Below, piece by piece: positions 6,666-40,916 of a stretch of DNA of 50,244 bases. Source of the DNA: Halieaceae bacterium (lineage in GTDB: Bacteria > Pseudomonadota > Gammaproteobacteria > Pseudomonadales > Halieaceae); the NCBI GenBank assembly GCA_902613175.1, contig CACMGJ010000014.1, positions 1-50,244 on the forward strand, given 5' to 3'. Below the pieces are notes generated by a model that saw only the letters and a program-made list of their open reading frames with translations, was not told the DNA's origin and did not search any database. Numbering within the stretch: position 1 is the stretch's first letter; every line of letters starts with the position of its first letter. Both the position numbers and the translations under genes were made by a program.

Positions 6666-6669
6666 CGAC

Positions 6670-9312: not shown

Positions 9313-10783
9313 ACAGCACCTCTCCAAGCTTAATCATTGTGGTTGTAATCGAATCTTCTACATCTCCAATAAAATTTGATCTTGAGTCGGTAAGCCTCTT
9401 AATTCCCTCCAAAATTTCATCGGCGTCAGACAGTAAGCCAGCAACTAGCACTTCCGCTTCTTCATAGTCTTTTTTTGCCCCGCGATGTGCGTCATTCAAT
9501 CGCTTAACAGTCTCCTCCTTTTTTTGAAGAGCACTAGCTAATTTACTAGAGAAAGCCTTATCAACCTCAATCTCGGCATCTAACATCTGTTGATCTACAC
9601 GCGCCAGTTGCCTCTTTAGCTCTCGAATAGACTCGCGCTGCGTAGTTACCCACTCAAGATACTGAGTAATCGACTCTTCATAATCCATCTCACCACCCTC
9701 AGAGGCTGTACTCTCTACGTCTGCTCCTGTAAGGCTCTGCAATACTGATTGGGGAGGCTCTAAAGTCTCAGCCCCGAGTTTTCTCACCGCTGCACCGAGT
9801 TGATCTGACTCGCTCTGTAATATGGATATTTGATCCGTAACGGCCGCAGTTTTCTCATCACAGATACGGTCATATGACTCCTGATCGTTTCTAAATTGGT
9901 CTACTAACTCTCCCAGCCACTGATATTGAGTTCCCTCAATACCTCTTATGAGACCGTCGCTTTTTGAGGCTTGCTCCACAAAGTCCAGGCAATCTTTAGA
10001 CTCGTCCATTCTTGCCTTGGCATTCACTAATTTCTCGCACGTGTCCTTGTAAATTTTTACCTGTTCTTCTTGCTCTTGCAGGGAATTGGCAATAGCGGTA
10101 ACCGATGCCTCAGCCAAAGATCTCAGTGCAGCCTCCAAAACAGGATTCCCAGGCCGGCCGGCTCCTGTCGCCAAGATCGAGGTTAGAACTTTGTCTGAGG
10201 CTAAGTACTCCCTTGCCGTAGTTGTCATTTCCTGCATTTTCGCCGCTTTCTGCAACAAGCCCTCAGCGGATAACTGAGTACTCTCATGGTGGAGCTCGCC
10301 CAGTGTATCTGCGGGAGTCTCATCATCTCCTTCAGCAAAGAGCGCCTCGGTAACCAGTTCAGCAACAAGAAGTTTTAATTCTTCAATAGCTCCTGAATGC
10401 TCATGTGTTGCAACACTTTCTAAGCACCCACGCAACTTTTCGGCTCTCAATACAAAACCCTCTTCGTCCCCGGTAAAAAGCAAAGACGACAGGATCTCTT
10501 CTCTAAACGAAGTGGAATTATCAGTTAGTCCCGGCATTTCAGCGGGTATCTCACTCAACGCCATACCGACCGCGGACAGATCTCTCGAATTCTCTGAATC
10601 AATATTTAAAAATTGATCCGTAAGTGCTCGAACAAGGTCATTCATTGATGAATCCTCTGCTTGACGTAAGCCGACGTCGCTGGCGACCTCAGCATACTCC
10701 TCCTGGGCCATTGAATCCTCATTATGAAGGGCCTCCAAATTTTCGTGAAGGCGGTTTTTTTTGCCCATACCCAACAATCTCAT
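9272..10783 (-). CDS. Large acidic coiled-coil protein of unknown function
   Basis: The 503-residue protein has no signal peptide or membrane helix and is rich in Glu, Asp, Ala, Leu and Gln. Long heptad-like helices are visible at about 200-330 and 380-460 (for example QEQEEQVKIYKDTCEKLV and SIRELKRQLARVDQQML). The start overlaps the stop of the upstream lipoprotein gene as ATGA, indicating translational coupling. The product looks like a cytosolic rod or scaffold. In this operon, after motA and two motB genes, it might be a cytoplasmic partner of the stator complex, but this is inference from position only. I recognise no family. Confidence 0.75.
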   Translation of the reverse strand: MRLLGMGKKNRLHENLEALHNEDSMAQEEYAEVASDVGLRQAEDSSMNDLVRALTDQFLNIDSENSRDLSAVGMALSEIPAEMPGLTDNSTSFREEILSSLLFTGDEEGFVLRAEKLRGCLESVATHEHSGAIEELKLLVAELVTEALFAEGDDETPADTLGELHHESTQLSAEGLLQKAAKMQEMTTTAREYLASDKVLTSILATGAGRPGNPVLEAALRSLAEASVTAIANSLQEQEEQVKIYKDTCEKLVNAKARMDESKDCLDFVEQASKSDGLIRGIEGTQYQWLGELVDQFRNDQESYDRICDEKTAAVTDQISILQSESDQLGAAVRKLGAETLEPPQSVLQSLTGADVESTASEGGEMDYEESITQYLEWVTTQRESIRELKRQLARVDQQMLDAEIEVDKAFSSKLASALQKKEETVKRLNDAHRGAKKDYEEAEVLVAGLLSDADEILEGIKRLTDSRSNFIGDVEDSITTTMIKLGEVLYEGNARANFDGEA

Positions 10784-17467: not shown

Positions 17468-18409
17468 GTGCGCAAATCCAACTGGTTGCATTCAAATTTA
17501 CAGTCGTTTGAAAGCTATGGAATAAGTTTCCTAGGGAAAATCCTTAGCAAACAAGACGCGGATAGTATTCTGCGATCGATAAAAGCGTCTCGGCCCTTCG
17601 ATTCAAACCTATTCCTATCGGAATCTGAGTTTGCTTCAAACCAAGAGTTTAGAGGCGTTAATCCCAGACCGGGACGAAACTTCTTGGAAACTATCGCCTC
17701 CGCTCTCGATCCAATAGACAAAAATGCTCGTTTGGACGGTTTGGTCTCAAAATTATTAGGGGATGAATATTACTTACTAGATCGGAAGGTGGTTTGTGGG
17801 ATACCTGAGTGGAATATGCCCCCATGGCTTAGATCCAGACTGGATGGAAGAGCAATTAACAACTTAGGTGCATACATAAAGCCCGAGTACCGAGATATTA
17901 CTTACTTTTATGGAATTGATTACCATCAAGACCTGATCGACTGGCCAGAGAGAGAACCAAATTTCATCACTTTGTATGTTTATCTCGATGACGTGGGAGT
18001 AGATGACGCCCCACTTACTTTGTTGGCGGGTTCACATCACCTAGGAGCCACAGAATTCCCTCACGACTTGGAGCTGTCAGACCCTACCGACCGCATATGG
18101 ACGTATAAATCATCTTCAGGTGAAGTAGAGTGCAGCGAAAAAAAGTTCATGGCGGGTGCTGGGAGTGCAGCCATTTGGCATGCCTGTACGCTTCATGGGA
18201 CCACACCACCTAAATCCACTATCGCTCGTATCTCCCTAAGGTACCTTTTAACCTCACGCCAAATCGGTAACCGCCCCAATATAGTCGACATAATGAATAC
18301 AAAGCTCTTTGGCAGCGTATCTCAAAAAACGACACGCCGGGATCAAAGCTCTTTTGGCGAAATCGTTAAATCTGGCAATAAACTTATCGAGAGCGTCGTG
18401 GATAAATGA
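17468..18409 (+). CDS. Phytanoyl-CoA dioxygenase (PhyH) family protein
   Basis: The 313-residue cytosolic protein fits Fe(II)/2-oxoglutarate dioxygenases of the PhyH family: an HxD iron motif at H153-Q-D155 (DYHQDLIDW) and a distal His at 243 (TLHGTTPP), followed by Arg residues (RISLR) for 2-oxoglutarate. GTG is the start, with AGGAG seven bases upstream. It overlaps pseF by four bases (ATGA), so it leads the pseudaminic acid operon. A hydroxylation of the sugar, its precursor or a substituent is plausible but unproven. Confidence 0.85.
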   Translation: MRKSNWLHSNLQSFESYGISFLGKILSKQDADSILRSIKASRPFDSNLFLSESEFASNQEFRGVNPRPGRNFLETIASALDPIDKNARLDGLVSKLLGDEYYLLDRKVVCGIPEWNMPPWLRSRLDGRAINNLGAYIKPEYRDITYFYGIDYHQDLIDWPEREPNFITLYVYLDDVGVDDAPLTLLAGSHHLGATEFPHDLELSDPTDRIWTYKSSSGEVECSEKKFMAGAGSAAIWHACTLHGTTPPKSTIARISLRYLLTSRQIGNRPNIVDIMNTKLFGSVSQKTTRRDQSSFGEIVKSGNKLIESVVDK

Positions 18410-19095
18410 AAATTGCTGTCATACCAGCACGGGGGGGTAGCAAGAGAATACCCAACAAAAACATTAAACCATTTCTTGGAAAACCCATAATCACCTACCC
18501 CATTGACTCCGCTCTGGCTAGTCGGCAATTTGAATCTGTAATAGTGTCCACGGACTGCGAGCGCATAGCGGAGATTGCACGAGATGCAGGCGCTGAAGTG
18601 CCATTCACGCGCCCACCGGAGCTAGCTGACGACCTAACGGGCACCACCCCCGTCGTAGGTCATGCGATTAACTGGTTTGAGCAGAATGTAAGTGATATTG
18701 AAGGCGTTTGCTGCATCTATCCAACCGCTGTATTTGTAAGCCCAAATATGGTCACTGAAGGATGGCGCAGGCTACTAGCGAGCAACTCAGATTTCCTAAT
18801 GACGGTAGCAGAATTCGAATTTCCAATTCAGCGCGCCCTGAAAATAAACGAAAATGGTTGTCTTGTTGCCTCAGAACCGGACAATTTTCACAAAAGATCG
18901 CAAGACCTTGCCCCAACTTTCCATGATGCAGGGCAGATGTACTGGGGTAGAGGGCAAGCGTTCCGGGGTTTATCTTTGAATTTAAACTCCATACCTATGA
19001 TCCTTCCGAGATGGAATGCACAAGATATCGATACCCTAGAAGATTGGGAAATGGCCGAGAAACTTTTTTCAATTTCAGAGCCCTGGCACACCTAA
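18406..19095 (+). CDS. pseF: Pseudaminic acid cytidylyltransferase
   Basis: The 229-residue cytosolic enzyme activates pseudaminic acid with CTP to CMP-pseudaminic acid, the last step before transfer. It carries the CMP-sugar synthetase signature IPARGGSKRIPNKNIK (6-21), a STDCERIA segment near 48, and the PseF-type HDAGQMYWG near 172, which differs from NeuA proteins. It overlaps the PhyH gene by ATGA and pseG by TAATG, so the three are coupled. A second, different cytidylyltransferase lies at 23274. Confidence 0.93.
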   Translation: MKIAVIPARGGSKRIPNKNIKPFLGKPIITYPIDSALASRQFESVIVSTDCERIAEIARDAGAEVPFTRPPELADDLTGTTPVVGHAINWFEQNVSDIEGVCCIYPTAVFVSPNMVTEGWRRLLASNSDFLMTVAEFEFPIQRALKINENGCLVASEPDNFHKRSQDLAPTFHDAGQMYWGRGQAFRGLSLNLNSIPMILPRWNAQDIDTLEDWEMAEKLFSISEPWHT

Positions 19096-20189: not shown

Positions 20190-20712
20190 GCAACTACCAC
20201 TCGTTCTTAAGTGGCGCAATGATCCTGCTGTCAGGCAAAATATGTACTCCTACGAAGAGATCAGCCCCCAGGAGCACAAACACTGGTTTCACTCGGTGCA
20301 AACTGACCCTGGACGTCGATATTTCATTTACTCCTGCAGTGGAAAGCCCACCGGCGTTGTCTACTTTTCGAATTTGATGCCTTTCAAACAACAAGCAATG
20401 TGGGGGTTTTACAGCGCCCCCGGTGCTCCGAGAGGTACTGGGCTACGGATGGAATTAGAGGCGTTGGACTTCGCTTTCATCGATCTTTCATTGCAAAAAC
20501 TTAATTGTGAGGTGATAGCCACTAACAAGAAAGTTATCAACCTGCATCGCAAGACGGGCTTTCAAGACGAGGGTCTCTTCAGGAACTACCACTTCGATGG
20601 TCATCGCTACATAGATGTTGTCAGGCTGGGTATGATAAGGAGCGAGTGGCCACAGGCAAAAAAAGTGCTGACTGACCGGATTATTAGAACAAAAACTACC
20701 GATACCGCATGA
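20167..20712 (+). CDS. pseH: UDP-4-amino-4,6-dideoxy-N-acetyl-beta-L-altrosamine N-acetyltransferase
   Basis: A 181-residue GNAT-family enzyme that acetylates the 4-amino group made by PseC, using acetyl-CoA. Family features: an LVLKWRNDPAVRQNMYS segment near 13-29 typical of PseH, a GVVYFSNL strand near 63, and a C-terminal NKKVINLHRKTGFQDEG stretch near 119-135 that matches GNAT motif B. It sits between pseG and the formyltransferase-like gene, overlapping both. Confidence 0.88.
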   Translation: MLTELLAEQLPLVLKWRNDPAVRQNMYSYEEISPQEHKHWFHSVQTDPGRRYFIYSCSGKPTGVVYFSNLMPFKQQAMWGFYSAPGAPRGTGLRMELEALDFAFIDLSLQKLNCEVIATNKKVINLHRKTGFQDEGLFRNYHFDGHRYIDVVRLGMIRSEWPQAKKVLTDRIIRTKTTDTA

Positions 20713-21416
20713 GCATGGGCGACTATAAAAATTCAATAGCCATTTGTGCCCCCCAGCCACACTGGGATGCTGTGGCGCAACGTCTGACTACTTGCCGTAA
20801 TATCGACGTAATACGTATTTATGATCCCGCCGAGCTTGAGGCACTGGCAAATGGCCAAACTGATCGATTGTTGTTCTTTCCTCATTGGAGCTGGAGTGTA
20901 CCCGAGAAAATCTTTACCAAACATGAGTGCATAATGTTTCACATGACAGATCTCCCGTTCGGAAGGGGCGGAACGCCTTTGCAGAATTTGATTTCTCGTG
21001 GATTTATGGAAACAAAACTGACCGCATTTCGCTGTGAAAAAGAATTAGATTCAGGTCCCATTTATATGAAACGCCCTCTTTCACTAGAGGGCACGGCGCG
21101 GGAAATAATGGAAAGGGCCGCCAAAATCACAGAACAGATGATAATTGAATTGATAGGATCCTCACGAACAACAAGCCCTCAAGAAGGTGTAGGTAGCTAT
21201 TTTAAAAGGCGTACGCCGGACGAGAGTGAGATAACTTGGGAAGGGAGCCTAAAATCAATCTTTGACCACATTAGAATGCTAGACGACGACTATTATCCCC
21301 GTGCCTTTATCGAGACTGAAAATTTTCGACTCACTTTTAGTGATGCCAAGACTGAGGGCGACGTTTTAAGTGCCAAAGTCCTCATAAGTAATAAAGAACA
21401 TCACGATGAAACCTGA
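20709..21416 (+). CDS. Formyltransferase-like protein (Fmt/ArnA fold)
   Basis: The 235-residue protein resembles the N10-formyltetrahydrofolate-dependent formyltransferase domain: MFHMTDLPFGRGGTPLQNLI (76-95) aligns with the usual NxHxSLLPxYRGxxPxxWAI motif, and D114 in LDSGPIY matches the catalytic Asp. H78 is kept, but the usual catalytic Asn is Met76. It is thus a variant subfamily. In a pse operon it could put an N-formyl group on pseudaminic acid, or do another one-carbon or hydrolytic step. It overlaps pseH by ATGA and the PIG-L gene by 11 bases. Confidence 0.8.
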   Translation: MSMGDYKNSIAICAPQPHWDAVAQRLTTCRNIDVIRIYDPAELEALANGQTDRLLFFPHWSWSVPEKIFTKHECIMFHMTDLPFGRGGTPLQNLISRGFMETKLTAFRCEKELDSGPIYMKRPLSLEGTAREIMERAAKITEQMIIELIGSSRTTSPQEGVGSYFKRRTPDESEITWEGSLKSIFDHIRMLDDDYYPRAFIETENFRLTFSDAKTEGDVLSAKVLISNKEHHDET

Positions 21417-22095
21417 AAGAATCTTGGCTGTGGTAGCACATGCGGATGATGAAGTTTTAGGCTGCGGCGGCACGCTTGCAAGACACTCCTCTGAAGGGCA
21501 TGAGGTTCGTGTTCTTGCAATGGCTGACGGAGTGAGTAGTAGATTAAACTTGGATGACGACCAGCGAAATGCAATCTATGAAAGGATGGAATTCGCAAAA
21601 GAAGGAGCAAGAATTTTAGGCATCTCTGCTATAGAGTTTGTGGGGTACCCCGATAACCAAATGGACGCCGTTCCCCTCCTGGAAGTCATTCAGCGCGTTG
21701 AAGCATATCTAAAAATATTTCCCGCTGATACGGTATACACGCACCATTGCGGTGACCTCAATATCGACCACTGTATAACCGGTCGCGCAGTGGTTACGGC
21801 AACGAGGCCCCTGCCCAATGCGTGTGTTCAAAATCTCTATGCGTTTGAAGTTCCATCCAGCACCGAATGGCGATTTGACAGTGGCTTCAACTCCTTTCAA
21901 CCAAACTTTTATATGGATATCTCAGATACGTTGGATAGGAAAATAGAAGCGTTGAAGGCCTATAAGAGTGAGGTCAAGGATTCTCCCCATCCTAGATCAA
22001 TCGAAGCCTGCAAGAGCCTTGCTCGGTTTAGAGGTAGTAACATTGGCATGTCGGCTGCGGAGGCCTTTATGCTGGTGAGAGCAATCCGAAAATGA
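21406..22095 (+). CDS. PIG-L family deacetylase
   Basis: The 229-residue cytosolic protein carries the zinc motif AHADDE (residues 11-16, family AHPDDE) and the later THHCGDLNIDH (112-122) that supplies the third zinc ligand. PIG-L/LmbE enzymes remove N-acetyl groups from GlcNAc-type sugars. Here, beside a formyltransferase-like gene and PseH, it may strip one acetyl group from a pseudaminic acid intermediate so that another acyl group can be added. The order is inferred from neighbours only. It overlaps pseI by ATGA. Confidence 0.88.
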   Translation: MKPERILAVVAHADDEVLGCGGTLARHSSEGHEVRVLAMADGVSSRLNLDDDQRNAIYERMEFAKEGARILGISAIEFVGYPDNQMDAVPLLEVIQRVEAYLKIFPADTVYTHHCGDLNIDHCITGRAVVTATRPLPNACVQNLYAFEVPSSTEWRFDSGFNSFQPNFYMDISDTLDRKIEALKAYKSEVKDSPHPRSIEACKSLARFRGSNIGMSAAEAFMLVRAIRK

Positions 22096-23192
22096 GTATG
22101 ACCATCGCCGGCTACACCATTAGTAGAGATCGTCCACCGATGATCATTGCAGAAATATCTGGTAATCATAAACAGTCGCTCGACCGGGCCCTCCAAATGG
22201 TTGAAGCAGCCGCAGAAAATGGCGCACACGCGGTAAAACTGCAGACCTACACAGCAGATACGATGACACTTCCCTCTAGCGACGAAGCGTACATCATAAA
22301 GTCACGACAAAGCCCCTGGTTCGGTCGCCATCTCTATGAGTTGTACGAGGAAGCCTATACGCCTTGGGAATGGCATCAACCCATCTTCAAACGCGCCAAA
22401 GAACTAGGAATAGGTGCTTTCAGTTCAGCATTCGATATCAGTGCGGTCAATTTTTTGGAAAGTATCGACACCCCAGCATACAAAATCTCTTCATTTGAAT
22501 GTTGTGACCTTCAACTACTTGCAGCGATTGCCCGCACCAAAAAGCCTGTAATCCTATCCTGTGGTATGGCGTACCTAAGTGAGATAAACCTGGCTGTCGA
22601 CACGTTACGGTCAGCGGGAAACACAGATATTGCGATTTTAAAATGTACCAGTGACTACCCCGCTGATCCCGAAGAATCTAATTTAAAGACGATCGAAGAT
22701 CTTCGGAATCACTTTAATTGCGAAGTGGGATTATCAGATCACACGTTAGGAGTCACGGTTGCAATCGCAGCTGTCGCACTTGGCGCCACGATCATAGAAA
22801 AGCACTTCACGTTAGAAAAAAACGATGGTGCCGTCGACTCTGAGTTCTCTGCGGACCCCAATGAACTGAAGCTTTTAGCCAACGCTACTAAAACAAGTTG
22901 GGAGGCGCTAGGGTCTATCACTTATGGACCAACAGCCTCGGAGCAAATTAATCGGTATTATCGACGATCGTTATATGCCGCACGTGATATAGCAAAAGGT
23001 CGTCAGATAGAAAGAGATGACCTTGTCTCTTTGAGGCCGCACTTAGGAGTTGATACCAAGTATATCAACTCTGTAATTGGGTCCTATGCCGAATCAGCAA
23101 TCGTGAAAGGCCAACCTATTAAGTCGCAACTTTTATATCCAGCTCTACAGGTTAGTGATGAGGTTAGCACCGAATCCAACCTAAAGGACTAA
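22092..23192 (+). CDS. pseI: Pseudaminic acid synthase
   Basis: This enzyme condenses phosphoenolpyruvate with the hydrolysed hexose to form pseudaminic acid. The 366-residue protein has a NeuB TIM barrel (about 15-275) with AEISGNHKQS near 18, VKLQTYTADT near 47, a YELYEEAYTPWEWH stretch typical of PseI near 82-95, and IEKHFTLEKNDGAVDSEFS near 235. A C-terminal SAF/antifreeze-like domain (about 295-352) contains RRSLYAARDIAKG. It is the last gene of the plus-strand pse operon, convergent with the second cytidylyltransferase 81 bases on. Confidence 0.94.
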   Translation: MSMTIAGYTISRDRPPMIIAEISGNHKQSLDRALQMVEAAAENGAHAVKLQTYTADTMTLPSSDEAYIIKSRQSPWFGRHLYELYEEAYTPWEWHQPIFKRAKELGIGAFSSAFDISAVNFLESIDTPAYKISSFECCDLQLLAAIARTKKPVILSCGMAYLSEINLAVDTLRSAGNTDIAILKCTSDYPADPEESNLKTIEDLRNHFNCEVGLSDHTLGVTVAIAAVALGATIIEKHFTLEKNDGAVDSEFSADPNELKLLANATKTSWEALGSITYGPTASEQINRYYRRSLYAARDIAKGRQIERDDLVSLRPHLGVDTKYINSVIGSYAESAIVKGQPIKSQLLYPALQVSDEVSTESNLKD

Positions 23193-23273: not shown

Positions 23274-23966
23274 TCAATGCCCACGTGCTTTAGAACTAAT
23301 TAAACTTTCGCACAACTCAAGATCTTCTTGATGGCTGACCTTAATGGACTTCAAGACGTTGAGAGGATGATATAACCTTTTCCTGCCAAGCGCTGCGGCA
23401 CCAAATCGATCAAACCTATCTATGAATGAGGCAGCATCCCAAATGGTTATAGCCCAGTTAAGAATATTCACTACTGCATTATCTTGAGTTGGCGCAAGCG
23501 TCTCTCCTAGTTTGATGTTAACCGGAGTATCTTCACAAAAAACCTGCATTTGAGTTGAATTCGATGTAATTAGCGTGTCACAGTCACTACCCTCATATGC
23601 TATAACGGCGTCCCGCACATCAACCGCCGTTATCAAGGGGCAAACCGGATTTATCATAATGAGCGTATCAGGCGAAAGCCGTGCAATTATATCCGCATTA
23701 AAGTGATCACTTTGCGTGGTATCATCAGCTAACGCTTTATCTCGCTCATATATATTAACTTCCGGATAGCTCCTTCTAACGTACTGTATGATTTCTAAAG
23801 AGTCCGTATTGACATAAATATTATCAGTTACCTTTGCTCCAACTGCAGCGTCGATAGCATAAGAAATCATTGGCCGCCCTCCCAAAAGTCTGAGATTTTT
23901 ATGACGCAGGCGTTTACTACCGTCCCTTGCCGGTATATGCAGTATCACTTTCCCAAGCCGACTCAA
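23274..23966 (-). CDS. CMP-sugar-type cytidylyltransferase (acylneuraminate family, not PseF)
   Basis: The 230-residue protein has the nucleotide signature IPARDGSKRLRHKN (11-24), a MISYAIDAA segment, and NTDSLEI near 53, all typical of NeuA-like CTP transferases. It lacks the PseF-type QMYWG block. It therefore probably activates another acidic sugar as the CMP derivative. It is the last gene of the seven-gene minus-strand operon and overlaps the phosphatase gene by ATGA, suggesting that it acts right after dephosphorylation. The substrate is unknown. Confidence 0.85.
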   Translation of the reverse strand: MSRLGKVILHIPARDGSKRLRHKNLRLLGGRPMISYAIDAAVGAKVTDNIYVNTDSLEIIQYVRRSYPEVNIYERDKALADDTTQSDHFNADIIARLSPDTLIMINPVCPLITAVDVRDAVIAYEGSDCDTLITSNSTQMQVFCEDTPVNIKLGETLAPTQDNAVVNILNWAITIWDAASFIDRFDRFGAAALGRKRLYHPLNVLKSIKVSHQEDLELCESLISSKARGH

Positions 23967-24691
23967 AGGTGTACTCCTATACTTATATTAATGAGATCGT
24001 CATCTAGAAACTGTAGATCAGTCTCTATACCCAACGCTCGATTAATTGCAAGACCGGCAGCAATATCCCAAATCTTAATATACTCCTCTGAGTACGCATC
24101 GACTCTGCCACAAGCAACATAGGCTAACGATAGCGCTGCTGATCCTAACAGACGAATCTTTTTAAACTTTTTGGAAAGTTCCGCGAGCCTGTAGAACTGA
24201 ATTTCCGATTGAACTCCATAAATAGAAAATCCGGTTGCCAGAACCGACTGACCTATAGGTCTCTTTCTTGGCCTAATCAATGGCTTATCGTTAAGCCATG
24301 AACCTACCCCACATACGCCACTGAACATCTCATCATTATTAAAATCGTATATTACTCCCACTAAGGGCACGTTACCTTTAAACAATGCAATTGAAATACA
24401 AGAAAGAGATATGCCTCTCGAATAATTGAGTGTTCCATCCAAAGGGTCAATAATCCAGAAAATGGAATCATTTTTGATGATGCCGATACGTCCAGTTTCC
24501 TCAGATAAGATCGGATAATTAAACCGGCTTACTAACTGCTGCATGATAGAGTTTTCCGCGATTTTATCTAAATTAATCTTGATATCTTTGTCTTCTTCCG
24601 CTTCTATCCTTACCTCCGATCTACGCTTCTTAAGCATATCGCCTACATTCGCGGCTATATTTTTCGCTAAATTCAGCTCGTTACTATACAT
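23963..24691 (-). CDS. Inositol monophosphatase family phosphatase
   Basis: The 242-residue protein carries the Mg2+-dependent sugar phosphatase set: EE at 64-65, DPLDGT at 82-87, and IWDIAAG at 207-213. Relatives hydrolyse inositol phosphate, PAP or sugar phosphates. In this operon, between a 2-hydroxyacid dehydrogenase (one base upstream) and a CMP transferase (overlapping), it likely removes the phosphate from the acid sugar before CMP activation. The substrate is inferred only from order. Confidence 0.88.
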   Translation of the reverse strand: MYSNELNLAKNIAANVGDMLKKRRSEVRIEAEEDKDIKINLDKIAENSIMQQLVSRFNYPILSEETGRIGIIKNDSIFWIIDPLDGTLNYSRGISLSCISIALFKGNVPLVGVIYDFNNDEMFSGVCGVGSWLNDKPLIRPRKRPIGQSVLATGFSIYGVQSEIQFYRLAELSKKFKKIRLLGSAALSLAYVACGRVDAYSEEYIKIWDIAAGLAINRALGIETDLQFLDDDLINISIGVHL

Positions 24692-24692
24692 A

Positions 24693-25625
24693 TTATGCGT
24701 AAAATGATATCAATTGTTCTATTGCGGCCTCTCCCATTGAGCGAACGGCCTCTCGAGAATTACCCCCAACATGCGGAGTGGCAATCAGATTGGGCAAACC
24801 GATAAAATCCATATCGTCAGGTGGTTCGTTGTCAAATACATCAATAGCTGCACCAGCAATCACATTTTCTTTCAGCGCGCGCTTCAAATCTTCCTGGTTG
24901 ATTAATTCTCCTCTCGCAGTATTGATAAAATAAGCGGAGCTTTTCATCATTTTTAGGCGATCATAATCGAAATAACTTCTGAGCTCATCGGTGAGCGGTG
25001 CGTGTATAGTAACAAAATCAGATTCGCGCAATAACTCGTCTTTTGCGACGCTAATCAATTGGTGTTCGTTGCAAAATTTGCTTTGATCAACAATATCATT
25101 AATGAGCACTTGGCATTTAAACGGTCGAAGAAGTTCTACAACTTCTTTTCCAATATTTCCTAACCCAATGATACCAACAGTTTTTCCAGTTACCTGTGCA
25201 CCGCCATCTTTATTCCATCGCCCGAGCTTCAGTTGATTCGAGGTGACATACAGATTTCGTGAAAGCATCAGCATACACCCTAAAACCTGCTCAGCGACTG
25301 ATCTTTTGTTAACTCCGTAACACACACATACGGCCACACCAAGCTTCTCGCAGTCTAAGAGATTGATATTATCCAGTCCCACTCCATATTTAGATATCAC
25401 TTTCAAACGCTTAGAATTCTTCAATACAGAAAAATCTATTCGATCCAACCCTATAATTGCTGCATCAACATCATGGAGCATCTCATTTAGCTCTCTAGAT
25501 GCGAGCCTTTTACCCGAGTCGTTAAACTTTATTGATCGAAAGCCCGCCGTTGAAATCCGATTCACCAAATACTCGTCCGTCGAAAAAGCAACTGTAGTGA
25601 CAGCCACATCTATTTCACTAATCAT
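24693..25625 (-). CDS. D-isomer-specific 2-hydroxyacid dehydrogenase
   Basis: The 310-residue NAD(P)-dependent enzyme has GLGNIG at 154-159, catalytic Arg238 (NTARGEL), Glu267 (FDNEPP) and His285 (TPHVGG), so the active site is complete. It lacks the ACT domain of serA in this window and is a different branch. It overlaps the Gfo/Idh/MocA gene by eight bases. It may reduce a 2-keto acid or oxidise a 2-hydroxy acid made from a phosphosugar in the same pathway. The substrate is unknown. Confidence 0.88.
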   Translation of the reverse strand: MISEIDVAVTTVAFSTDEYLVNRISTAGFRSIKFNDSGKRLASRELNEMLHDVDAAIIGLDRIDFSVLKNSKRLKVISKYGVGLDNINLLDCEKLGVAVCVCYGVNKRSVAEQVLGCMLMLSRNLYVTSNQLKLGRWNKDGGAQVTGKTVGIIGLGNIGKEVVELLRPFKCQVLINDIVDQSKFCNEHQLISVAKDELLRESDFVTIHAPLTDELRSYFDYDRLKMMKSSAYFINTARGELINQEDLKRALKENVIAGAAIDVFDNEPPDDMDFIGLPNLIATPHVGGNSREAVRSMGEAAIEQLISFYA

Positions 25626-26625
25626 AGTTATCTAAAGCCGCAGCATATATTTTTTCAATTGTCTTTAACGATTCATAAGCGGCTTGAGAGCGCCCATTTT
25701 TAACCTTTCCCTTGTTCCTTATTGCTGAAAAAAATTCATCAATTTCAAGACTCCAGGAATTATCGTTTTCAAACCAAATGGTATTTTCCGCTGGCTTACC
25801 CATGGCATAGGTAATATCTTCAAATTCCCGCTTACCAACGGTCAGTTTCTCTGGAGAGTAACTTCTCGTCTCTGATAAAATTCCATCCAAATTTATATAT
25901 CCCTCTTCAAATGTCATTTCCAAAGAGAACTTATGTCGCCATTGCGTAGCAGATGAATGCATCATAGCAGTAACATTATTCTTAGACTGCATGATAATAA
26001 ATGCATTATCCTCCGCCTCAATATTCCAATACGAAGTGTTAACGAAACTTTTTATATTTTCGAATTTTTCACCGGAGAAAAAATGCATTAGATCCAGCAT
26101 GTGAATTCCCTGGTCGATTAAGATCCCGCCACCTGAAAACTTTTTATAATTTCGCCAGTCTTTATGATAATCAATACTTCCGGCTTTACCATACACACCC
26201 CGGATCCACAACATTTTACCTAGCTCACCAGTTGCGATGATCTTTTTCGCCTCAATAACGGAGTAATGGAAGCGGTGATTAAACCCATATTTAAGAACGC
26301 TATTTGACTTTGCCTCCAATTCCAAAATCGGGTGAAGCTCGTCAGAACTACGAGCTCCCGGCTTTTCGCAGAAAACATGGACGCCGTTGAGCAGGGCTTC
26401 CATAGTATATTCGGCTAGGACATTGTTAACCGCACACACAAACACAGCATCAATGTCGAGAGCGAGCAGATCGGCATAGCTGCGCACAAACTTAACACCC
26501 TTTGGTAATACGTCCGGCCTTTCAATATCATGAACAGCTACAAGCGTGACATCCTCCCGCTTTAAAATCTCCCGTGCTCTGACCTGCCCGATCTTACCAA
26601 ATCCTGCAATAGCAACTTTAATCAT
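25618..26625 (-). CDS. Gfo/Idh/MocA family oxidoreductase
   Basis: The 335-residue NAD(P)-dependent sugar oxidoreductase has GFGKIG at 8-13 for the nucleotide, the CEKP motif at 86-89 with the catalytic Lys, and DQGIHMLDLM near 170 typical of the C-terminal sheet. Relatives such as WlbA oxidise UDP-GlcNAcA at C3, while others act on inositol or free sugars. Here it overlaps the SIS isomerase by eight bases and precedes the 2-hydroxyacid dehydrogenase, fitting a multi-step oxidation of a phosphosugar. The reaction is not known. Confidence 0.88.
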   Translation of the reverse strand: MIKVAIAGFGKIGQVRAREILKREDVTLVAVHDIERPDVLPKGVKFVRSYADLLALDIDAVFVCAVNNVLAEYTMEALLNGVHVFCEKPGARSSDELHPILELEAKSNSVLKYGFNHRFHYSVIEAKKIIATGELGKMLWIRGVYGKAGSIDYHKDWRNYKKFSGGGILIDQGIHMLDLMHFFSGEKFENIKSFVNTSYWNIEAEDNAFIIMQSKNNVTAMMHSSATQWRHKFSLEMTFEEGYINLDGILSETRSYSPEKLTVGKREFEDITYAMGKPAENTIWFENDNSWSLEIDEFFSAIRNKGKVKNGRSQAAYESLKTIEKIYAAALDNYD

Positions 26626-27202
26626 TAGACATCAATTGAAGATAGTAAGAATAAATTAAGTGATCCAGTATCATGTGCACGTCTTCTACCAATCCATAAT
26701 CACCAACTTCAGTCCGCACATGGAAGTTGATATCTGCAAGCTCCATAAGCTCTCCTCCGTCGAATCCGCTGACACCCACCACTTTTGTACCTTCGGTCTT
26801 CGCATATTTAATCGCCTTAATCACGTTAGACGAGTTACCACTGCAGGAAAATGCAATTACTAGGTCGTTATCACACAGTCGATTACGAAGTTGTTCATAA
26901 AATACGTTCTCGTAACCCACGTCATTAGCTAACGCCGTCATCACTGATGTGTTGTCCGCTAGCGAGATCATATCCAGCGAAAGTAAACCTCTTCGACCCA
27001 AACCTGAGACACCAAGATCGTTCGTCATGTGTGAAGCCGTAGCCGCACTCCCGCCATTACCGATAACGTAGACGCGACCCCCGGCCTGAGCCACTAATTC
27101 CAGACTCTCGACGATCTCGCAAACTACACCTGCATCAATCTCCTCGATCAACGTGATCAATTTTTTTGTATACAACTCTACAAAGGATCGGACGTTTAGC
27201 AT
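26618..27202 (-). CDS. SIS-domain phosphosugar isomerase, GmhA-like
   Basis: The 194-residue protein consists of a SIS domain: VYVIGNGGSAATASHMTNDL (44-63) and IAFSCSGNSSNVIKA near 115-129, the phosphate-binding signatures of sedoheptulose-7-phosphate isomerase GmhA and its relatives. It is the likely entry enzyme of the following oxidoreductase-phosphatase-cytidylyltransferase series, acting on a ketose or heptose phosphate. Four bases separate it from the DUF115 gene upstream. No hldE or gmhB partner for a classical heptose pathway is in the window. Confidence 0.87.
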   Translation of the reverse strand: MLNVRSFVELYTKKLITLIEEIDAGVVCEIVESLELVAQAGGRVYVIGNGGSAATASHMTNDLGVSGLGRRGLLSLDMISLADNTSVMTALANDVGYENVFYEQLRNRLCDNDLVIAFSCSGNSSNVIKAIKYAKTEGTKVVGVSGFDGGELMELADINFHVRTEVGDYGLVEDVHMILDHLIYSYYLQLMSND

Positions 27203-27206
27203 TTAA

Positions 27207-28355
27207 TTACTCGCTATCAATGGGCATTACTTTCTGCAGTTCTTGCAAAGGTATTAAGTCCAGCTCAGTCTGTCGAGATAAATTATAGATTTTTATATCA
27301 TTAGTTTCACAAAACTGCATCACTCTCTTGAAGCTCTGTCGCTGCATGTGGAGGTTTGGCTTATTCCACCTCTCCCCTTTTTTTCTATAGTCCTGGTGAA
27401 AATGATTCTGTTCGCCAACACTTAATATCAACTGATCTGTGTGCGCCGACGATTCAGGTACTTCAAATTTAAAATCTATACCTAGAAGATAAATTTCTTT
27501 TATACCCATGTACAGAGCAAGTTGCACCATTGTATATGTTATAGTTGAGCCCCAATAAACGCCTTCAAAAGGATCGACGCTAAAATCAGGAAGACCTGGA
27601 AAAAATGAATGCCATCTATGATTAAAATAAATAGCGTCGTTTATCGGCGGCCCAAATTGGAGGAGTGAATTCGATACGAGCTTTACGACATCCGATAAAC
27701 AATGGATATCCGTATAGTTTTGAAGAAAAACTTGGTCGTCTTCAACACAATAATAAGTTGGTCGCCACGATGTTGAACCAAACGCAAGATAAATTTTATT
27801 AGACGCAAAGGTCACCTCGCCCTCAAGCAGCGACAAGTCTGAAACTCGTAAACTAGGACCATTACCGATTAAAAAAGCTCTTCGCCCATAATGTTTATTT
27901 TTCAGCAACGACAAACGCTTCTCGTTTCTAAGGTATCGCACACCGAATCTTACGGCAAGCCAGAATCTAATCCGTGATATGTTATATCGCGGTTGAGATA
28001 AGCTGACAAAAAACCTGCGAGCGGCACGGGTAGTTAAATACCATGTAATCGAATCTGTAGTGGCAAATGAATTTTCATCAACGAAAAAAATTTGCTTTTT
28101 TGAAATACCTTTAGTCACCAGGGTGTTGTAGATTTCCACGCCATAATTTGGCGAAATAATCAAAAAAGTTGCATTTGAATTAGTCGAACTAAGTACTTTT
28201 TGAACTGGATTTTTTTGTTTATCTAAATAACCCTGAAACCCAGAATCTAAAAATCTCTCTCGTAAATGACTGAAAAAATTATACGCTAAGTTATTCTCAG
28301 GAAGGATATAATAATTATCGTAAGGATTCCTTTTTTTGCTCGAAAAATCAATCAT
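27207..28355 (-). CDS. DUF115-domain protein (Maf-related, putative glycosyltransferase)
   Basis: The 382-residue protein has the DUF115 signature FLIGNGPSLR near residue 166, FASNKIYLAF near 183, then YCVEDDQVF near 202, a WGSTITYTMVQLALYMG helix near 270 and YLLGIDFKF near 290. It is related to the core of Maf flagellin glycosyltransferases, to sialyltransferase-like CST proteins and to 6-hydroxymethylpterin pyrophosphokinase MptE. A role in transferring a CMP-activated sugar is plausible. DNA here is visibly AT-rich compared with the flagellar genes. It is second in the seven-gene operon. Confidence 0.8.
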   Translation of the reverse strand: MIDFSSKKRNPYDNYYILPENNLAYNFFSHLRERFLDSGFQGYLDKQKNPVQKVLSSTNSNATFLIISPNYGVEIYNTLVTKGISKKQIFFVDENSFATTDSITWYLTTRAARRFFVSLSQPRYNISRIRFWLAVRFGVRYLRNEKRLSLLKNKHYGRRAFLIGNGPSLRVSDLSLLEGEVTFASNKIYLAFGSTSWRPTYYCVEDDQVFLQNYTDIHCLSDVVKLVSNSLLQFGPPINDAIYFNHRWHSFFPGLPDFSVDPFEGVYWGSTITYTMVQLALYMGIKEIYLLGIDFKFEVPESSAHTDQLILSVGEQNHFHQDYRKKGERWNKPNLHMQRQSFKRVMQFCETNDIKIYNLSRQTELDLIPLQELQKVMPIDSE

Positions 28356-28361: not shown

Positions 28362-29489
28362 TTACCTCAAGCAAACAAGATCTATATAACCATTATATTC
28401 AGAAACTCCGTTCTCAAAATATTCTATAATTCCTTTTTCTGAAATTGGAACTAAGTTATAGTCACAAGTCTCTGACGGCTCTATAACGAATATCTCATCA
28501 AACTCTCGGAGAGTGCGCATAATTTTCGGCCCAGTAGAACCATTTAATCCAAGATGATATGGTGAAAACTCTATTGCAACTTTTAAAGGACCAAAAAAAT
28601 GATCTAAAATATCTGATAAAATAACAAAATCTCCACCCTGGGTATCAATTTTTATTATATTGGGAGATAAATTTGGATAAAGGTCAAAGAGCAATTTTGA
28701 TCCACGTGTCATCGATACTAAATGCCGAGACTTTTTAAATCGTTCGCTCTCGTTACCCTGCGGTTTTGTGGTTCTGTGGTCCCCATAGTTTTCTATACTT
28801 TGGTGAAGCTCTGCGTGGCCTTCTCCGGAACCTAGAGCTGTATTGAAGACTGTAATGTTATTGCAGTGGTTTGCATGCAAATTGATTTGAAATAGAGAAA
28901 AATTCAATGGATCAGGCTCAAAAGCAAGTATTTGAGCACTGGGTTGTTGTTTTGAGAGGTATATAGAGACAGAGCCGAGATTGCCCCCCACATCCAGAAA
29001 AATAGTGTCTGGCAATATTTGGTCTCGTAGCCAGGCGAGCTCGGCGAGGTATCGTGAGCATAGAGTTCTGTCTTCCCGCAACATTGCACCTAATACTCGG
29101 TCTTTTTCCGATGTAGCAAACCTAATATTTGTGCCAAGAATATCTAAGTTTGAAAAAACAAAAGGTTGAAAATAGATTGGGGATTCTAAAAATTTAAAAT
29201 CAATATCTGATTCCCGAGCTATAAAGGAAGGTACGCTGAACTTTTTCGCAGGCACATAAAGTTCCAAAAGTTGTTCACAGATTTCCTCGTAAAACTCGCT
29301 TGCAATTATAATTTCGTCAAAGGCCATACCAGGTAGATCTTTTGGGTGAACAACAGGTATGCCATGCATGTAGCGTCCAACTCGACTATCGTCGTTGTCA
29401 CAAAATGCCGAAACTCGTGTGTCGGGCGGGATGCTCGAAATTACTCGCTTGCCACCAGAACCGGAGCCGAAAATTATAACTGTTTTCAA
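28362..29489 (-). CDS. FkbM-type methyltransferase with an N-terminal Rossmann-like domain
   Basis: A two-domain protein of 375 residues. The first 85 residues (TVIIFGSGSGGKRV, then VSAFCDNDDSRVG and FDEIIIAS) form a small nucleotide-binding-like domain seen also at 30972 and 31814. The rest is an FkbM SAM-dependent methyltransferase: FLDVGGNLGSVSIY near 173, ILAFEPDPLNFSL near 195, and IIKIDTQGGD near 272. The TTG at 29489 is preferred because AGAGG lies 10 bases upstream and the domain begins there, as in the paralogue; ATG at 29522 and GTG at 29555 are longer options. It heads the minus-strand operon and probably O-methylates a glycan. Confidence 0.82.
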   Translation of the reverse strand: MKTVIIFGSGSGGKRVISSIPPDTRVSAFCDNDDSRVGRYMHGIPVVHPKDLPGMAFDEIIIASEFYEEICEQLLELYVPAKKFSVPSFIARESDIDFKFLESPIYFQPFVFSNLDILGTNIRFATSEKDRVLGAMLREDRTLCSRYLAELAWLRDQILPDTIFLDVGGNLGSVSIYLSKQQPSAQILAFEPDPLNFSLFQINLHANHCNNITVFNTALGSGEGHAELHQSIENYGDHRTTKPQGNESERFKKSRHLVSMTRGSKLLFDLYPNLSPNIIKIDTQGGDFVILSDILDHFFGPLKVAIEFSPYHLGLNGSTGPKIMRTLREFDEIFVIEPSETCDYNLVPISEKGIIEYFENGVSEYNGYIDLVCLR

Positions 29490-29904
29490 TAGAAATTTGC
29501 CTCTTATTGTTGCTGGCGGCATGAGTTCATTGTTGATACCTGCGTTTGTGATCACCTAACGCCCTCAAAGGTTACATTGCCACTAGCGTATACATTATCA
29601 TGATCTGATTGCGTTGTGGATTTGCCTCAAAAAGCCTCTCACGAGGATAGATAAATATCCTTCATTATGCGGATTATGCCTGTGTATGCGCTTCGGTGCG
29701 CCTGCTGAGACTTGGCGCGAAATTGAATTATCGCGGGGTTTCGTCATTTGCTCTGCTGGTACTTTTTTTGGGCCTTGGCGCTCACGTATGTTAGGGCCCT
29801 CGCTTTGCAGGTAAGGCTACCTTCACGTAGGCTCTAGGATTACAGTTGTTTTATGAATTCCAAAATCGCGTCCTACGCTTAGATACTTTGAGAACGAAAC
29901 ACCT
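29490..29904. promoter_or_regulatory. Divergent promoter region between two glycan operons
   Basis: This 415-base gap separates the minus-strand FkbM operon from the plus-strand DUF115 operon and should hold both promoters. It contains small hairpins: GGATA/TATCC around 29653 and GCGC/GCGC around 29690. The open stretch at 29614-29814 gives a Cys/Trp-rich translation with no binding site or family resemblance, so I do not call a gene. Confidence 0.4.
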
Positions 29905-30975
29905 ATGAGCTTCCAATATGATGTCATCGTCTGCCACAACACCCCTTTGGATGTAGTCAAACATTGCAGCCAATATGACAAAACACAATTCTTGGTCTTC
30001 GGTGGGCAAGACGTCAATTGTGATGCCATTCAGCGGCTATCAAACACGCGGTGCTTTCCCATCAGTGAGTTCTACCTTGTCCTAGGTCGCCACCAAGGAG
30101 AAATTTCATCAGTAATCTACTTTCCTGTAGGTGGTTTCGAAAATACCGAGCATGAGTTCATGAGGAAGCCGGTTATCAGGGTCAAGCGCTATTACCAGTT
30201 AATTGACTACGCTACACAAAAATCAATTCCTCAGTTTTATTTCGACAAAGATCGGATTTTGCCATTTCCCAAATTTGACACGCTTACCATGCATTACAAT
30301 GCTCACGAGGGAAAGCGCGGCTTTATTCTGGGGAATGGCCCATCGCTTGCAAATTTCCCGGTGCACGAATTAAAAAATGAGATTACCTTTGGAGCGAATC
30401 GGGTCTATCTGGGCTTCAAAGACTGGGGATTTGCAGTCACGTATCACGCATGCTTAGATCGGATTCAGTTCGAGGAACATTTGCAAGAATGGCTTGAAAA
30501 TGTCCCTGAAGAGTGTACAAAGCTATGGGCCTTTGATTACTTTGGTTATTTTGCGCCGAAAAAGAGCCTTCCCCTAAATTTTAACTATGCGTTTAGTGCT
30601 GCTCCGCGATTTGCGGGCGGTCCCGAAGAGGTGTTCATGGGGCACAGTTCCGTATACCTCTTATTGCAAGTTGCATATGCTATGGGATGCAATCCGATTT
30701 ACTTAGTCGGTGTTGATACCAACTATGAAATTTCGACTGAAGAACAACGGCGTGGTTTTTGGACCTCGAACGAATCACAATTCCACTTTCATAAAGATTA
30801 CTGCGATCAAGGTGACCGAAAATTTGCGCTGCCTAACCTAGAACTTGCCTTCCAATCATATGCATATGCTCGTCAGTTCCTTGATCGGAGAGGCGTGAAG
30901 GTAATAAACCTAAATCCGGACTCAAAAGTTCGCGATTTTGAATTTCAGGACTACAGAGAAATACTTTCCCAATGA
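29905..30975 (+). CDS. DUF115-domain protein (Maf-related, putative glycosyltransferase)
   Basis: The 356-residue protein shares the core of the protein at 27207: FILGNGPSLANFP near residue 145, TFGANRVYLGF near 161, a MGHSSVYLLLQVAYAMG helix near 247 and YLVGVDTNYE near 270, then a His-rich SQFHFHKDYC. The N-terminal 140 residues differ. It overlaps the methyltransferase gene by ATGA and starts a three-gene operon. A glycosyltransferase or transferase-like role in the same glycan is likely; the donor is unknown. Confidence 0.8.
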   Translation: MSFQYDVIVCHNTPLDVVKHCSQYDKTQFLVFGGQDVNCDAIQRLSNTRCFPISEFYLVLGRHQGEISSVIYFPVGGFENTEHEFMRKPVIRVKRYYQLIDYATQKSIPQFYFDKDRILPFPKFDTLTMHYNAHEGKRGFILGNGPSLANFPVHELKNEITFGANRVYLGFKDWGFAVTYHACLDRIQFEEHLQEWLENVPEECTKLWAFDYFGYFAPKKSLPLNFNYAFSAAPRFAGGPEEVFMGHSSVYLLLQVAYAMGCNPIYLVGVDTNYEISTEEQRRGFWTSNESQFHFHKDYCDQGDRKFALPNLELAFQSYAYARQFLDRRGVKVINLNPDSKVRDFEFQDYREILSQ

Positions 30976-38786: not shown

Positions 38787-40736
38787 TTACGTCTTCACCA
38801 ATTCAACTAGAGATTTCGCTCTGATCAGCATGTCTGACAAACGCTTGCTCTGGACCTTTACGGCTAAGTAATAATCGTGTGATATCATCAAGTTGTCGTC
38901 TAAGCTCTGGACGGACTGCAGAGAAGCATCAGCCTCCAGCTTCGCTGGTAGGGTATAGAAGTTTATGAACGAACCCGTCGTTGACATTTTTTTTGATAGC
39001 TCTTGCTCAACCTGGCTCAAAAAGGTCGTTTCACTAGACTTCTGATCAAGTAACGATTGCAGCTCGTCTACCAGCATACCAGCCAACACCTCTACATCGC
39101 CAAGCTGGGAAATTTCAGCAACTAGCGCAGAAACAAGATCTCTTGATTCAACGGACTTAGTTAGCTCTGATTGCCATCCAGATATGTCGCCTCCTCTACC
39201 GGAACCTGATTGCTGCTTGATCACAACTGGGTGGGAAGAATCCAGTGGGAGGTGTGCCCAGTTATCCAAAAAGGCCCCCCTTACAGTACAGTTATACAAC
39301 GCTACAGCACCGCCGTATTTCTCCCCTAGGTACGCTAACTCTCTGATGAACTGCAGATAATCGTCTTGTGTGGAATGTTGCTCGCCATCGATGCCCTTAC
39401 ACGTCAAACCGTCAACTTGCTCGCGCTCGCGCTGTTGATCTTCCGACGCATATGGGTCTTTGGCGAAGCTTAGGTCTTGCCCCACAAGTGTAATCGATTC
39501 AACTCCAAGCTCAGCGCATAACGATACGGCATGAGACGCAACGCCTGTTCCCACTACGGCCGGTGGATTTTTCCCATGTATTTCGATCGACAGCGGGCTG
39601 CCTGTTAACTCAACTGTCGGTATTACAATGAAGTGCTGGAATTTGGCCTCGAGCGTTGTCGTGTGGGTATATTCAGTGACTATCAGAGGTATTTGACTTA
39701 AGGAGTCGTCCTCCGGAATCAAATTTAAGTTACCCTCAGCATGGTCGGCAGCGTCAGAAAGAATTGCAAAATCAGGCACGATATCGAAATCCAAGAGTAA
39801 GGGCGCAGATCGGAGCATCGATATCAAAATAAAGTGGTCTCGAAACTCCTTAATAGCGGGAAGAGATTCAAGAAGTGATGGACCAGGCGAGACTATTAGG
39901 ATCGGCTCTCCCTCAAAAAAGGTCCGCAAATTTGAAATACTTGGCAAATCTACGATTTTAGGGATATTCCGAGCAAATCGATTTGAAAAGACCACAGGCA
40001 AAAAGCTTTGTGAAGCCTCAAGTATGAACTCTTTTTCAACCTGCTTTACAAGACTTTCAAAATATTCAAACTGCTTGTCAACTGCCTCTGTCGATATGTG
40101 CGTTAAAGCAGGCGGCTCAGCGGCCCGAATGGTGTCAAGTTGATTTTCGGTAAGGATACAATGCTCTGTGACATACAAGATGGTCGCAGCCTCGGCAGAA
40201 GTCCGTCCACTTCCTGTCGGAATAGCGACAGTGTCTATTGGCATGTTAACTGGAGCATCACGCTCCAATACGACTATTACCTTAGATTGTCCTCGTGAAA
40301 CGAGTGCTTCCACAAAAGATTTAGAGTTCTTTCCTGTAAGGATGACGATGTCATTCGCAAAGTCCCACCTGCTGTCTAGCCTCCTATCCAGCAAGATGCT
40401 TATGCCGTCTTCCGACTTGACGAGCTCCGCCTCGCCGACCGAGCTTATGATGCTGTCAAACCAAACAGCTATAGATTGCCAGTGTTTATTTATTTTTTGT
40501 AGTGAGATCCTAGCTGAGTCTGCCGATCGCGCACTTAAATGGTTTTGATCCGCCCAATCTGCGTCCACGGCAGATGCCCTCTCCAATCGCAAATGTCGCC
40601 TGTAAATTCTTGAGTTCAACACCCTAGCAGAATCTAGGTTAATTCGAGCGCTCTCTAGATCTCCGTGGGCGAGCGCTTCTTTAGCTGAATAGAGTACTTT
40701 CTCAAGCCGCGGATAAATTAGAGGCTGCTCGTTCAT
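38787..40736 (-). CDS. Maf-type motility accessory / flagellin glycosyltransferase
   Basis: The 649-residue cytosolic protein is a DUF115 protein of the motility accessory factor family, thought to load nonulosonic acids on flagellin. The core has EPILIVSPGPSLLESL near 277, FAILSDAADH near 327, GTGVASHAVSLCAELG near 396, and TLVGQDLSFAKD near 416. The N-terminal 250 residues and C-terminal helices flank it. I chose the ATG at 40736; a frame extension to 40889 would run over the fliC promoter and adds unrelated residues. It is divergent from fliC, so the target sits next door, and pse genes supply the donor. Confidence 0.88.
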   Translation of the reverse strand: MNEQPLIYPRLEKVLYSAKEALAHGDLESARINLDSARVLNSRIYRRHLRLERASAVDADWADQNHLSARSADSARISLQKINKHWQSIAVWFDSIISSVGEAELVKSEDGISILLDRRLDSRWDFANDIVILTGKNSKSFVEALVSRGQSKVIVVLERDAPVNMPIDTVAIPTGSGRTSAEAATILYVTEHCILTENQLDTIRAAEPPALTHISTEAVDKQFEYFESLVKQVEKEFILEASQSFLPVVFSNRFARNIPKIVDLPSISNLRTFFEGEPILIVSPGPSLLESLPAIKEFRDHFILISMLRSAPLLLDFDIVPDFAILSDAADHAEGNLNLIPEDDSLSQIPLIVTEYTHTTTLEAKFQHFIVIPTVELTGSPLSIEIHGKNPPAVVGTGVASHAVSLCAELGVESITLVGQDLSFAKDPYASEDQQREREQVDGLTCKGIDGEQHSTQDDYLQFIRELAYLGEKYGGAVALYNCTVRGAFLDNWAHLPLDSSHPVVIKQQSGSGRGGDISGWQSELTKSVESRDLVSALVAEISQLGDVEVLAGMLVDELQSLLDQKSSETTFLSQVEQELSKKMSTTGSFINFYTLPAKLEADASLQSVQSLDDNLMISHDYYLAVKVQSKRLSDMLIRAKSLVELVKT

Positions 40737-40814
40737 TTGGCATCTACCTGAATGCAACAGCGTGATGGTGTCATTTAGTCTGAGAGCCCTCAAGAAAAAA
40801 ATAACAGTCCTCGT

Positions 40815-40841: not shown

Positions 40842-40916
40842 TTCTAGTTGTCGGGAAGATTCTGACATTAGGGCGAAGCCCTTCAACAAAGATTAACTTA
40901 TTTAAAGGAGGCCAAT

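Follow-up and report, generated by a model that had tools for sequence, protein, structure and literature searches.

A five-gene operon in a Halieaceae flagellar island predicted to make a CMP-activated 2-ulosonic acid by oxidation

A flagellar island of a Halieaceae bacterium (GenBank assembly GCA_902613175.1) carries a compact operon encoding, in order of transcription, a SIS-domain sugar-phosphate isomerase, a Gfo/Idh/MocA oxidoreductase (Gfo), a D-isomer-specific 2-hydroxyacid dehydrogenase (HADH), an IMPase-family phosphatase and a cytidylyltransferase (CT). The operon lies on contig CACMGJ010000014.1, of which positions 1 to 50,244 were analyzed as a whole (the window). We consider it rather probable, though far from certain, that these genes specify an oxidative route to a 2-ulosonic acid activated with cytidine monophosphate (CMP), made without condensation of phosphoenolpyruvate (PEP) and destined for flagellar or other surface glycans. 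To our knowledge, the known CMP-ulosonate pathways form the acid through PEP or pyruvate condensation. If true, the operon would represent a third way to CMP-ulosonates beside the NeuB and 3-deoxy-D-manno-octulosonic acid (Kdo) routes. If oxidative, the route would extend the nucleotide sugars by a further class and would explain a recurrent, uncharacterized gene set of several phyla and of contigs classed as viral. No description of the gene set was found in open-licence literature, and excerpts of PMC5109656, which describes Geobacillus flagellin islands, contain no such set.

We infer the substrates, order of steps, carbon number, product and acceptor as follows. The isomerase would convert a ketose phosphate, most likely sedoheptulose 7-phosphate, to an aldose phosphate, which Gfo would oxidize at C1 to a lactone that opens to the phospho-aldonate unaided or through a lactonase from elsewhere. 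HADH would then oxidize C2 to give a 2-ulosonate phosphate, in the heptose case the 3-hydroxy analogue of 3-deoxy-D-arabino-heptulosonate 7-phosphate (DAHP). The IMPase would remove the sugar phosphate, a step taken in related operons by an AroB-like lyase plus a short-chain dehydrogenase/reductase (SDR). CT would make the CMP-2-ulosonate, and a neighboring Maf/MptE-like transferase would attach its sugar to a flagellar protein. More tentative, and somewhat doubtful, is the specific proposal of a horizontally mobile, multi-phylum route to CMP-hept-2-ulosonic acids through two oxidations of heptose 7-phosphate, in which exchange of the ending would switch the product between the full heptulosonate and its 7-deoxy or carbocyclic counterpart. 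The proposed route predicts concrete products and masses on flagellins and capsules.

Results and Discussion

Open reading frames (ORFs) and Pfam matches agree with the original prediction that five genes of these families overlap or abut at positions 23274–27202. In gene order, the proteins score above Pfam gathering thresholds for SIS_2, GFO_IDH_MocA with GFO_IDH_MocA_C3, 2-Hacid_dh with 2-Hacid_dh_C, Inositol_P and CTP_transf_3. Recurrence of the set in other genomes, the check suggested with that prediction, was found in several phyla. A first scan of genome contigs with the window CT gave eight loci. At two of them, from Arcobacter (L003) and Halarcobacter (L005), SIS, Gfo, HADH, DUF386, SDR, AroB-like and CT genes stand in a row; a Tannerellaceae locus (L004) has SIS, IMPase, DUF386 and CT genes, with Gfo not in view at the contig end. 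The set was not seen in the stretch examined at the other five loci, although one of these genomes (L006) carries a Gfo-SIS-HADH-SDR-AroB-like set elsewhere (L017). All five genes occur together at L016, L035, L036, L041, L043, L046, L053 and L054. L016 belongs to a genome of the Arcobacter phylum (Gfo profile search), and a protein search of plasmid records gave L035 on a Leisingera aquaemixtae plasmid and L036 in Paenibacillus cellulosilyticus.

Scattered occurrence extends to contigs classed as viral. Among 17 viral matches in IMG/VR, five (L018–L022) were examined, the remaining 12 being weak. L018 and L020 have a compact HADH-Gfo-SIS-CT arrangement, L019 is cut by the contig end with its SIS gene incomplete, and L021 and L022 carry AroB versions of the set. 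At L018, L019 and L020 the HADH-Gfo-SIS(-CT) genes lie amid series of glycan genes, and no IMPase or AroB gene is in view. INPHARED phages gave no Gfo match at E ≤ 1e-40. In phylum-wide counts with Gfo profile A6 (E ≤ 1e-60), matches were found in 10 of 398 genomes of the window's own phylum (window included), 2 of 249 in the Arcobacter phylum (G293; both found earlier), 7 of 247 in the Tannerellaceae phylum (G294) and 4 of 50 in the Denitrovibrio phylum (G296; itself included). Within its order the window was the single match among 293 genomes (Gfo profile A1, E ≤ 1e-90). Such rarity and patchy distribution are what a glycan module spread by horizontal transfer would be expected to show.

Nineteen new Gfo places were examined with flanks of up to about 9 kb per side. 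The three weakest matches (L037, L042 and L052), which have no set and branch apart from the main Gfo clade (support only 81/97), were left out to give 16 contexts. SIS and HADH genes were each present in 15 of the 16 and CT in 14; all three were present in 13 (13 of 19 with the outliers). By comparison, 20 contexts of other Gfo/Idh proteins contained SIS once, CT once, HADH never and all three never. These controls were hand-picked across the E-value range from 59 weaker paralogue matches, with any less than 20 kb from a cassette passed over. Four control contexts were cut short, and the sole control with a CT match (L076) is about 23 kb from a cassette. Seeds for the hidden Markov models (HMMs) of neighboring genes came from members of the 28 family-Gfo loci considered below, none from the 19 new contexts. 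Family Gfo proteins were cleanly apart in 18 carrier genomes, the weakest member scoring 8.5e-115 and the best other Gfo/Idh protein 2.9e-39. The difference between cassette and control contexts thus indicates that the set is a real functional unit, and chance adjacency was rejected on the absence of the trio from all controls.

Judged by its sequence, the window isomerase is a divergent GmhA paralogue, scoring 105.3 bits against the GmhA model TIGR00441 (cut-off 209.45) with no CBS domain match (Pfam). At the positions of GmhA H64, E68, Q175 and H183, which we take to be its metal and catalytic residues, the window protein has H, D, E and H. Across the family, D occupies the E68 position in 26 of 26 rows and E the Q175 position in 25 of 25 rows with data; a separate GmhA-like SIS protein of the same genome has the canonical E and Q. 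The altered active site defines a subfamily of its own, with a substrate that may differ from that of GmhA. The operon shares with GmhA and nucleoside diphosphate (NDP)-heptose pathways the isomerase family and sedoheptulose 7-phosphate as likely start; it differs from them in these two residues and in having no kinase or NDP-heptose pyrophosphorylase. It is very improbable that an ordinary NDP-heptose or inositol-type sugar operon has been misread as one pathway. A GmhA-like isomerase and an IMPase-like phosphatase would suit such an operon, but heptose kinase and guanylyl- or adenylyltransferase genes are absent (Pfam), the isomerase falls under the GmhA cut-off and the set is conserved across loci. 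Moreover, the separate SIS gene with canonical GmhA residues is adjoined by a HAD-phosphatase-like ORF (HAD by reading). A plain NDP-heptose operon was rejected on the lack of an internal kinase or NDP-transferase and the presence of that separate GmhA-like gene.

Catalytic motifs of the remaining enzymes are retained. The window Gfo has both Rossmann and C-terminal domains and keeps K88, D171 and H175, presumably the K, D, H catalytic motif of two-domain Gfo/Idh/MocA proteins. The motif is kept in 27 of 28 family rows, the exception (L043) being a frame with a stop. In-frame stops were observed in the Gfo frames of L017 (9184–10191), L043 and L046, where decay and sequence error are both possible. 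The R/E/H triad of HADH is kept in 27 of 27 rows and the IMPase metal-binding motifs, assumed here to be EE, DPLDG and WD, in 10 of 10, the window included in each case.

The CMP-Kdo pathway consists of KdsD, KdsA, KdsC and KdsB. Like the operon, it combines a SIS isomerase, an acid-forming step, a phosphatase and a cytidylyltransferase. Unlike it, the operon has no PEP condensation, an isomerase without a CBS match, an IMPase in place of a HAD phosphatase, and a CT under the KdsB cut-offs (24.6 bits with TIGR00466, cut-off 155.2). Pseudaminic, legionaminic and sialic acid pathways likewise end in a PF02348 cytidylyltransferase (NeuA/PseF/LegF) and feed Maf-type flagellin glycosyltransferases, but the operon has two dehydrogenases and an isomerase where those pathways have NeuB-type PEP condensation. 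According to excerpts of PMC7371886, a NeuB-type PEP-dependent synthase is the one conserved gene of nonulosonic acid pathways. As originally predicted, the operon has no NeuB-like synthase; none of its five proteins matches NeuB or another PEP-condensing family (Pfam, NCBIfam), and the nearby PseI belongs to a separate Pse set. PseB, C, H, G, I and F are all encoded in the window above NCBIfam cut-offs, constituting a complete pseudaminic acid pathway. The predicted distinction between CT and PseF was also borne out: against TIGR03584 (cut-off 205.7) they score 72 and 295 bits, respectively, and a PseF duplicate was rejected as an identity for CT. With PseF present in the island, CT is a second cytidylyltransferase unneeded for pseudaminic acid synthesis.

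We regard it as distinctly unlikely that the operon feeds into a known nonulosonate or Kdo pathway or decorates its product, with CT activating the product of PseI or Kdo synthase and the other enzymes tailoring it. The end of PseI is only 81 bases from the end of the CT gene, some relatives have a KdsB-like CT, and NeuB-like genes also occur at L022 and L051. However, the window holds the full Pse set with its own PseF above cut-off, no operon gene matches a PEP-condensing family, and a NeuB-like gene is present at 3 of 28 loci, window included (HMM with two seeds; KdsA was not searched in relatives). The earlier claim that this is no known nonulosonate or heptose route stands in part: scores under the PseF, KdsB and GmhA cut-offs, lack of NeuB and the separate Pse set make a known route less likely, and go no further than that.

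The phosphate-removing step of the favored oxidative route appears in two versions that were not found together. Of the 28 loci where a family Gfo is present, an IMPase occurs at 10, an AroB-like gene at 12 and both at none; an SDR adjoins the AroB-like gene in 12 of 12. Were the two genes independent, zero overlap would have a probability of about 6 in 10,000, with the proviso that the loci are related. At L049 the IMPase match is weak (97 bits) and about 5 kb away from Gfo. L004, with no Gfo in view, is outside the 28 loci, and contig ends truncate L044 and L045. The Gfo tree, parts of which are unsure owing to some long branches, shows the ending labels interleaved, and its well-supported branches require five or more changes of each label; even so, AroB is more clustered than under shuffling, 5 of 500 shuffles giving a value as low. 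Interleaving suggests that one ending has been exchanged for the other on several occasions while the upstream enzymes stayed the same. In a CT tree (18 cassette rows of at least 130 bits plus PseF, KdsB-like proteins excluded), IMPase and AroB labels are no more clustered than shuffles; thus, both endings may give products that are alike to CT. As described in parts of PMC7144000, an AroB-type enzyme takes phosphate off by elimination, which would explain why AroB operons need no phosphatase. The window contains no AroB-like gene and has the IMPase in its place. No AroB was found in the window genome, which is 59% complete, and nothing is concluded from this.

The AroB-like ending bears on the intermediate. 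Excerpts of PMC6262012 describe eleven named residues through which Staphylococcus aureus 3-dehydroquinate synthase (DHQS) binds DAHP. With positions transferred via alignment to S. aureus 1xag, 10 of the 11 are kept in all 12 AroB-like proteins. An AroB-like profile scored thirteen DHQS-type chains at 171 to 231 bits, one more DHQS-labelled chain (5tpr) at 125, 2-deoxy-scyllo-inosose (DOI) synthase at 168 and 2-epi-5-epi-valiolone (EEV) synthase at 155. Substrates of DOI and EEV synthases are not known to carry a carboxylate. All 10 AroB-branch genomes searched (viral contigs L021 and L022 were left out) have a second AroB above the housekeeping cut-off, with the cassette copy under it, and on this ground the cassette AroB was rejected as the housekeeping DHQS. 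Collectively, the DHQS-like profile scores, the kept DAHP pocket and the second AroB point to a DAHP-like 2-ulosonate 7-phosphate as the most likely substrate of the cassette enzyme, given its likeness to DHQS. Such a compound follows if the GmhA-like isomerase makes heptose 7-phosphate, Gfo oxidizes C1 and the PGDH-like HADH oxidizes C2. Entry to the shikimate pathway, where AroB converts DAHP to 3-dehydroquinate, offers a parallel: the intermediate predicted here would differ from DAHP by a 3-hydroxy group, and most of the DAHP pocket is retained in the AroB-like branch. Unlike DAHP, this intermediate would arise by oxidation and not through DAHP synthase. If true, a shikimate-like reaction has been recruited to glycan building. 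The closest model is TIGR04425 (AroB-related putative sugar phosphate phospholyase, cyclizing), against which the L003 AroB-like protein scores 387.7 bits (cut-off 400). This is a hypothetical family in NCBI's collection without known substrate, in place of which the window has an IMPase; an oxidative route would give a function to proteins near it.

Oxidation of C1 by Gfo is supported by a 6-phosphogluconolactonase at L049 (157.2 bits, cut-off 124.45), encoded directly beside HADH and Gfo. PF04199 hydrolases near the set at L004, L016, L017, L046, L047 and L048 may also be lactonases. Pathways of the same logic with another carbon number or site, starting from a hexulose or pentulose phosphate or using Gfo at C3 to give a different keto or aldonic acid, seem unlikely to us. 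C3 oxidation occurs in other Gfo family members, and the window Gfo matches NCBIfam models as diverse as inositol 2-dehydrogenase, UDP-GlcNAc 3-dehydrogenase and xylose 1-dehydrogenase, all under cut-off. The SIS active site is unlike that of GmhA, and the substrate for which the L049 lactonase is named is a hexose acid. On the other side, an AroB-like alternative with a DHQS pocket and relatedness to GmhA both favor seven carbons, and a start from glucose 6-phosphate would presumably make a dedicated isomerase needless.

Several neighbors are informative about the product and acceptor. DUF386 genes, present at 7 of 28 loci and at L004, belong to the family of N-acetylneuraminate anomerase; two tested copies fall under the cut-off of that model. 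At L016, the gene after the set has a weak match (24.2 bits, cut-off 20) to Capsule_synth, a family that we take to include Kdo transferases, and its homologue at L036 also follows the set, with a HAD match only. These homologous proteins of about 1085 aa (L016, 12965–16231; L036, 10011–13262) stand directly after the set in two phyla and are possible CMP-ulosonate transferases. We discarded a weak similarity between the Kps-like protein of L016 and proteins of L053 and L054, the L053 protein having a methyltransferase domain match only. MptE/Maf-like genes were found by HMM near the set at 8 of 28 loci, window included. Parts of PMC11339370 report that Maf enzymes take CMP-N-acetylneuraminic acid and CMP-Kdo besides their native legionaminate-type donor. 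DUF386, Maf/MptE-like and the L016 Capsule_synth-match genes together point to a CMP-ulosonate donor, and the MptE/Maf-like gene next to the window isomerase is a candidate for the glycosyltransferase using the CMP sugar.

Neighboring lactonase, anomerase-family, AroB-like and Maf-like genes fit the order of reactions originally proposed (isomerization, two oxidations, dephosphorylation and activation with CTP, without PEP condensation). With aldolase genes near the set at three loci, some versions may make a ulosonate through an aldol reaction instead. The products first suggested, an aldonic, keto or deoxy acid, can probably be narrowed to a 2-keto (ulosonic) acid.

A number of observations weigh against the oxidative route. 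Six of the 28 loci have neither an IMPase nor an AroB-like ending. CT is not strictly co-inherited: none is in view at L049, and the proteins of L039, L040, L043, L050 and L051 are KdsB-like, scoring less than 155.2 with TIGR00466 and above at least one KdsB subfamily cut-off. The last GmhA histidine is lost in the SIS proteins of L018, L020, L022 and L046, the first is missing from that of L051, and in that of L050 H178 is replaced by Q. At K181 of the DHQS pocket, 6 of the 12 AroB-like proteins have His and the other 6 keep Lys. The window operon itself has neither a lactonase nor a DUF386 gene. HpcH/HpaI-family aldolases near the set at L017, L049 and L050 make an aldol route to a 2-keto-3-deoxy acid possible there. 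Gfo/Idh, SIS and IMPase families are promiscuous, and the seven-carbon chain is predicted from relatedness to GmhA and DHQS only. At L049, Gfo, HADH, 6-phosphogluconolactonase and HpaI-type aldolase genes are consecutive (6371–10014), an apparent alternative version of the pathway.

Genomic Context of the Operon

Family searches of the window place the operon in a flagellar island encoding MotA/MotB, FliD, an FlgL-type flagellin and FlgI. Features of the operon and its surroundings are listed in Table 1.

Table 1. Genes of the operon and selected neighbors in the window
Feature	Positions	Strand	Remarks
SIS-domain sugar-phosphate isomerase	27202-26618	minus	194 aa; first of the five-gene set in transcription order
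Gfo/Idh/MocA oxidoreductase	26625-25618	minus	335 aa; 8-base overlap with isomerase gene
D-isomer-specific 2-hydroxyacid dehydrogenase (HADH), PGDH-like	25625-24693	minus	310 aa; 8-base overlap with Gfo gene
IMPase-family phosphatase	24691-23963	minus	242 aa; 1-base gap after HADH gene
Cytidylyltransferase (CT), PF02348	23966-23274	minus	230 aa; TTG start; 4-base overlap with IMPase gene
MptE/Maf-like gene	27207-28355	minus	4-base gap upstream of isomerase; PF01973 39.6 bits (gathering score 34.6)
FkbM-family methyltransferase	28362-29555	minus	6-base gap upstream of MptE/Maf-like gene
PseI	22092-23192	opposite to operon	81 bases past operon end; part of complete Pse set
PseF	18406-19095		TIGR03584 295 bits (cut-off 205.7)

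The TTG start of CT agrees with the alignment of relatives. The FkbM methyltransferase gene is likely the first gene of the same transcription unit as the five-gene set, with a possible role in sugar O-methylation. The island encodes three MptE/Maf-like proteins (27207–28355, 29905–30975 and 38787–40889), for which different donors would be available if two CMP sugars are made. Elsewhere in the window, an 819-aa protein (2870–5329) carries a DUF305 domain close to the N-terminus, its long remainder having no assigned domain. A PhyH dioxygenase gene (17468–18409) lies ahead of PseF. Between PseH and PseI, positions 20709–22095 contain a formyltransferase-like gene and a BshB-like deacetylase gene, both under cut-offs, which suggests a formylated pseudaminic acid variant.

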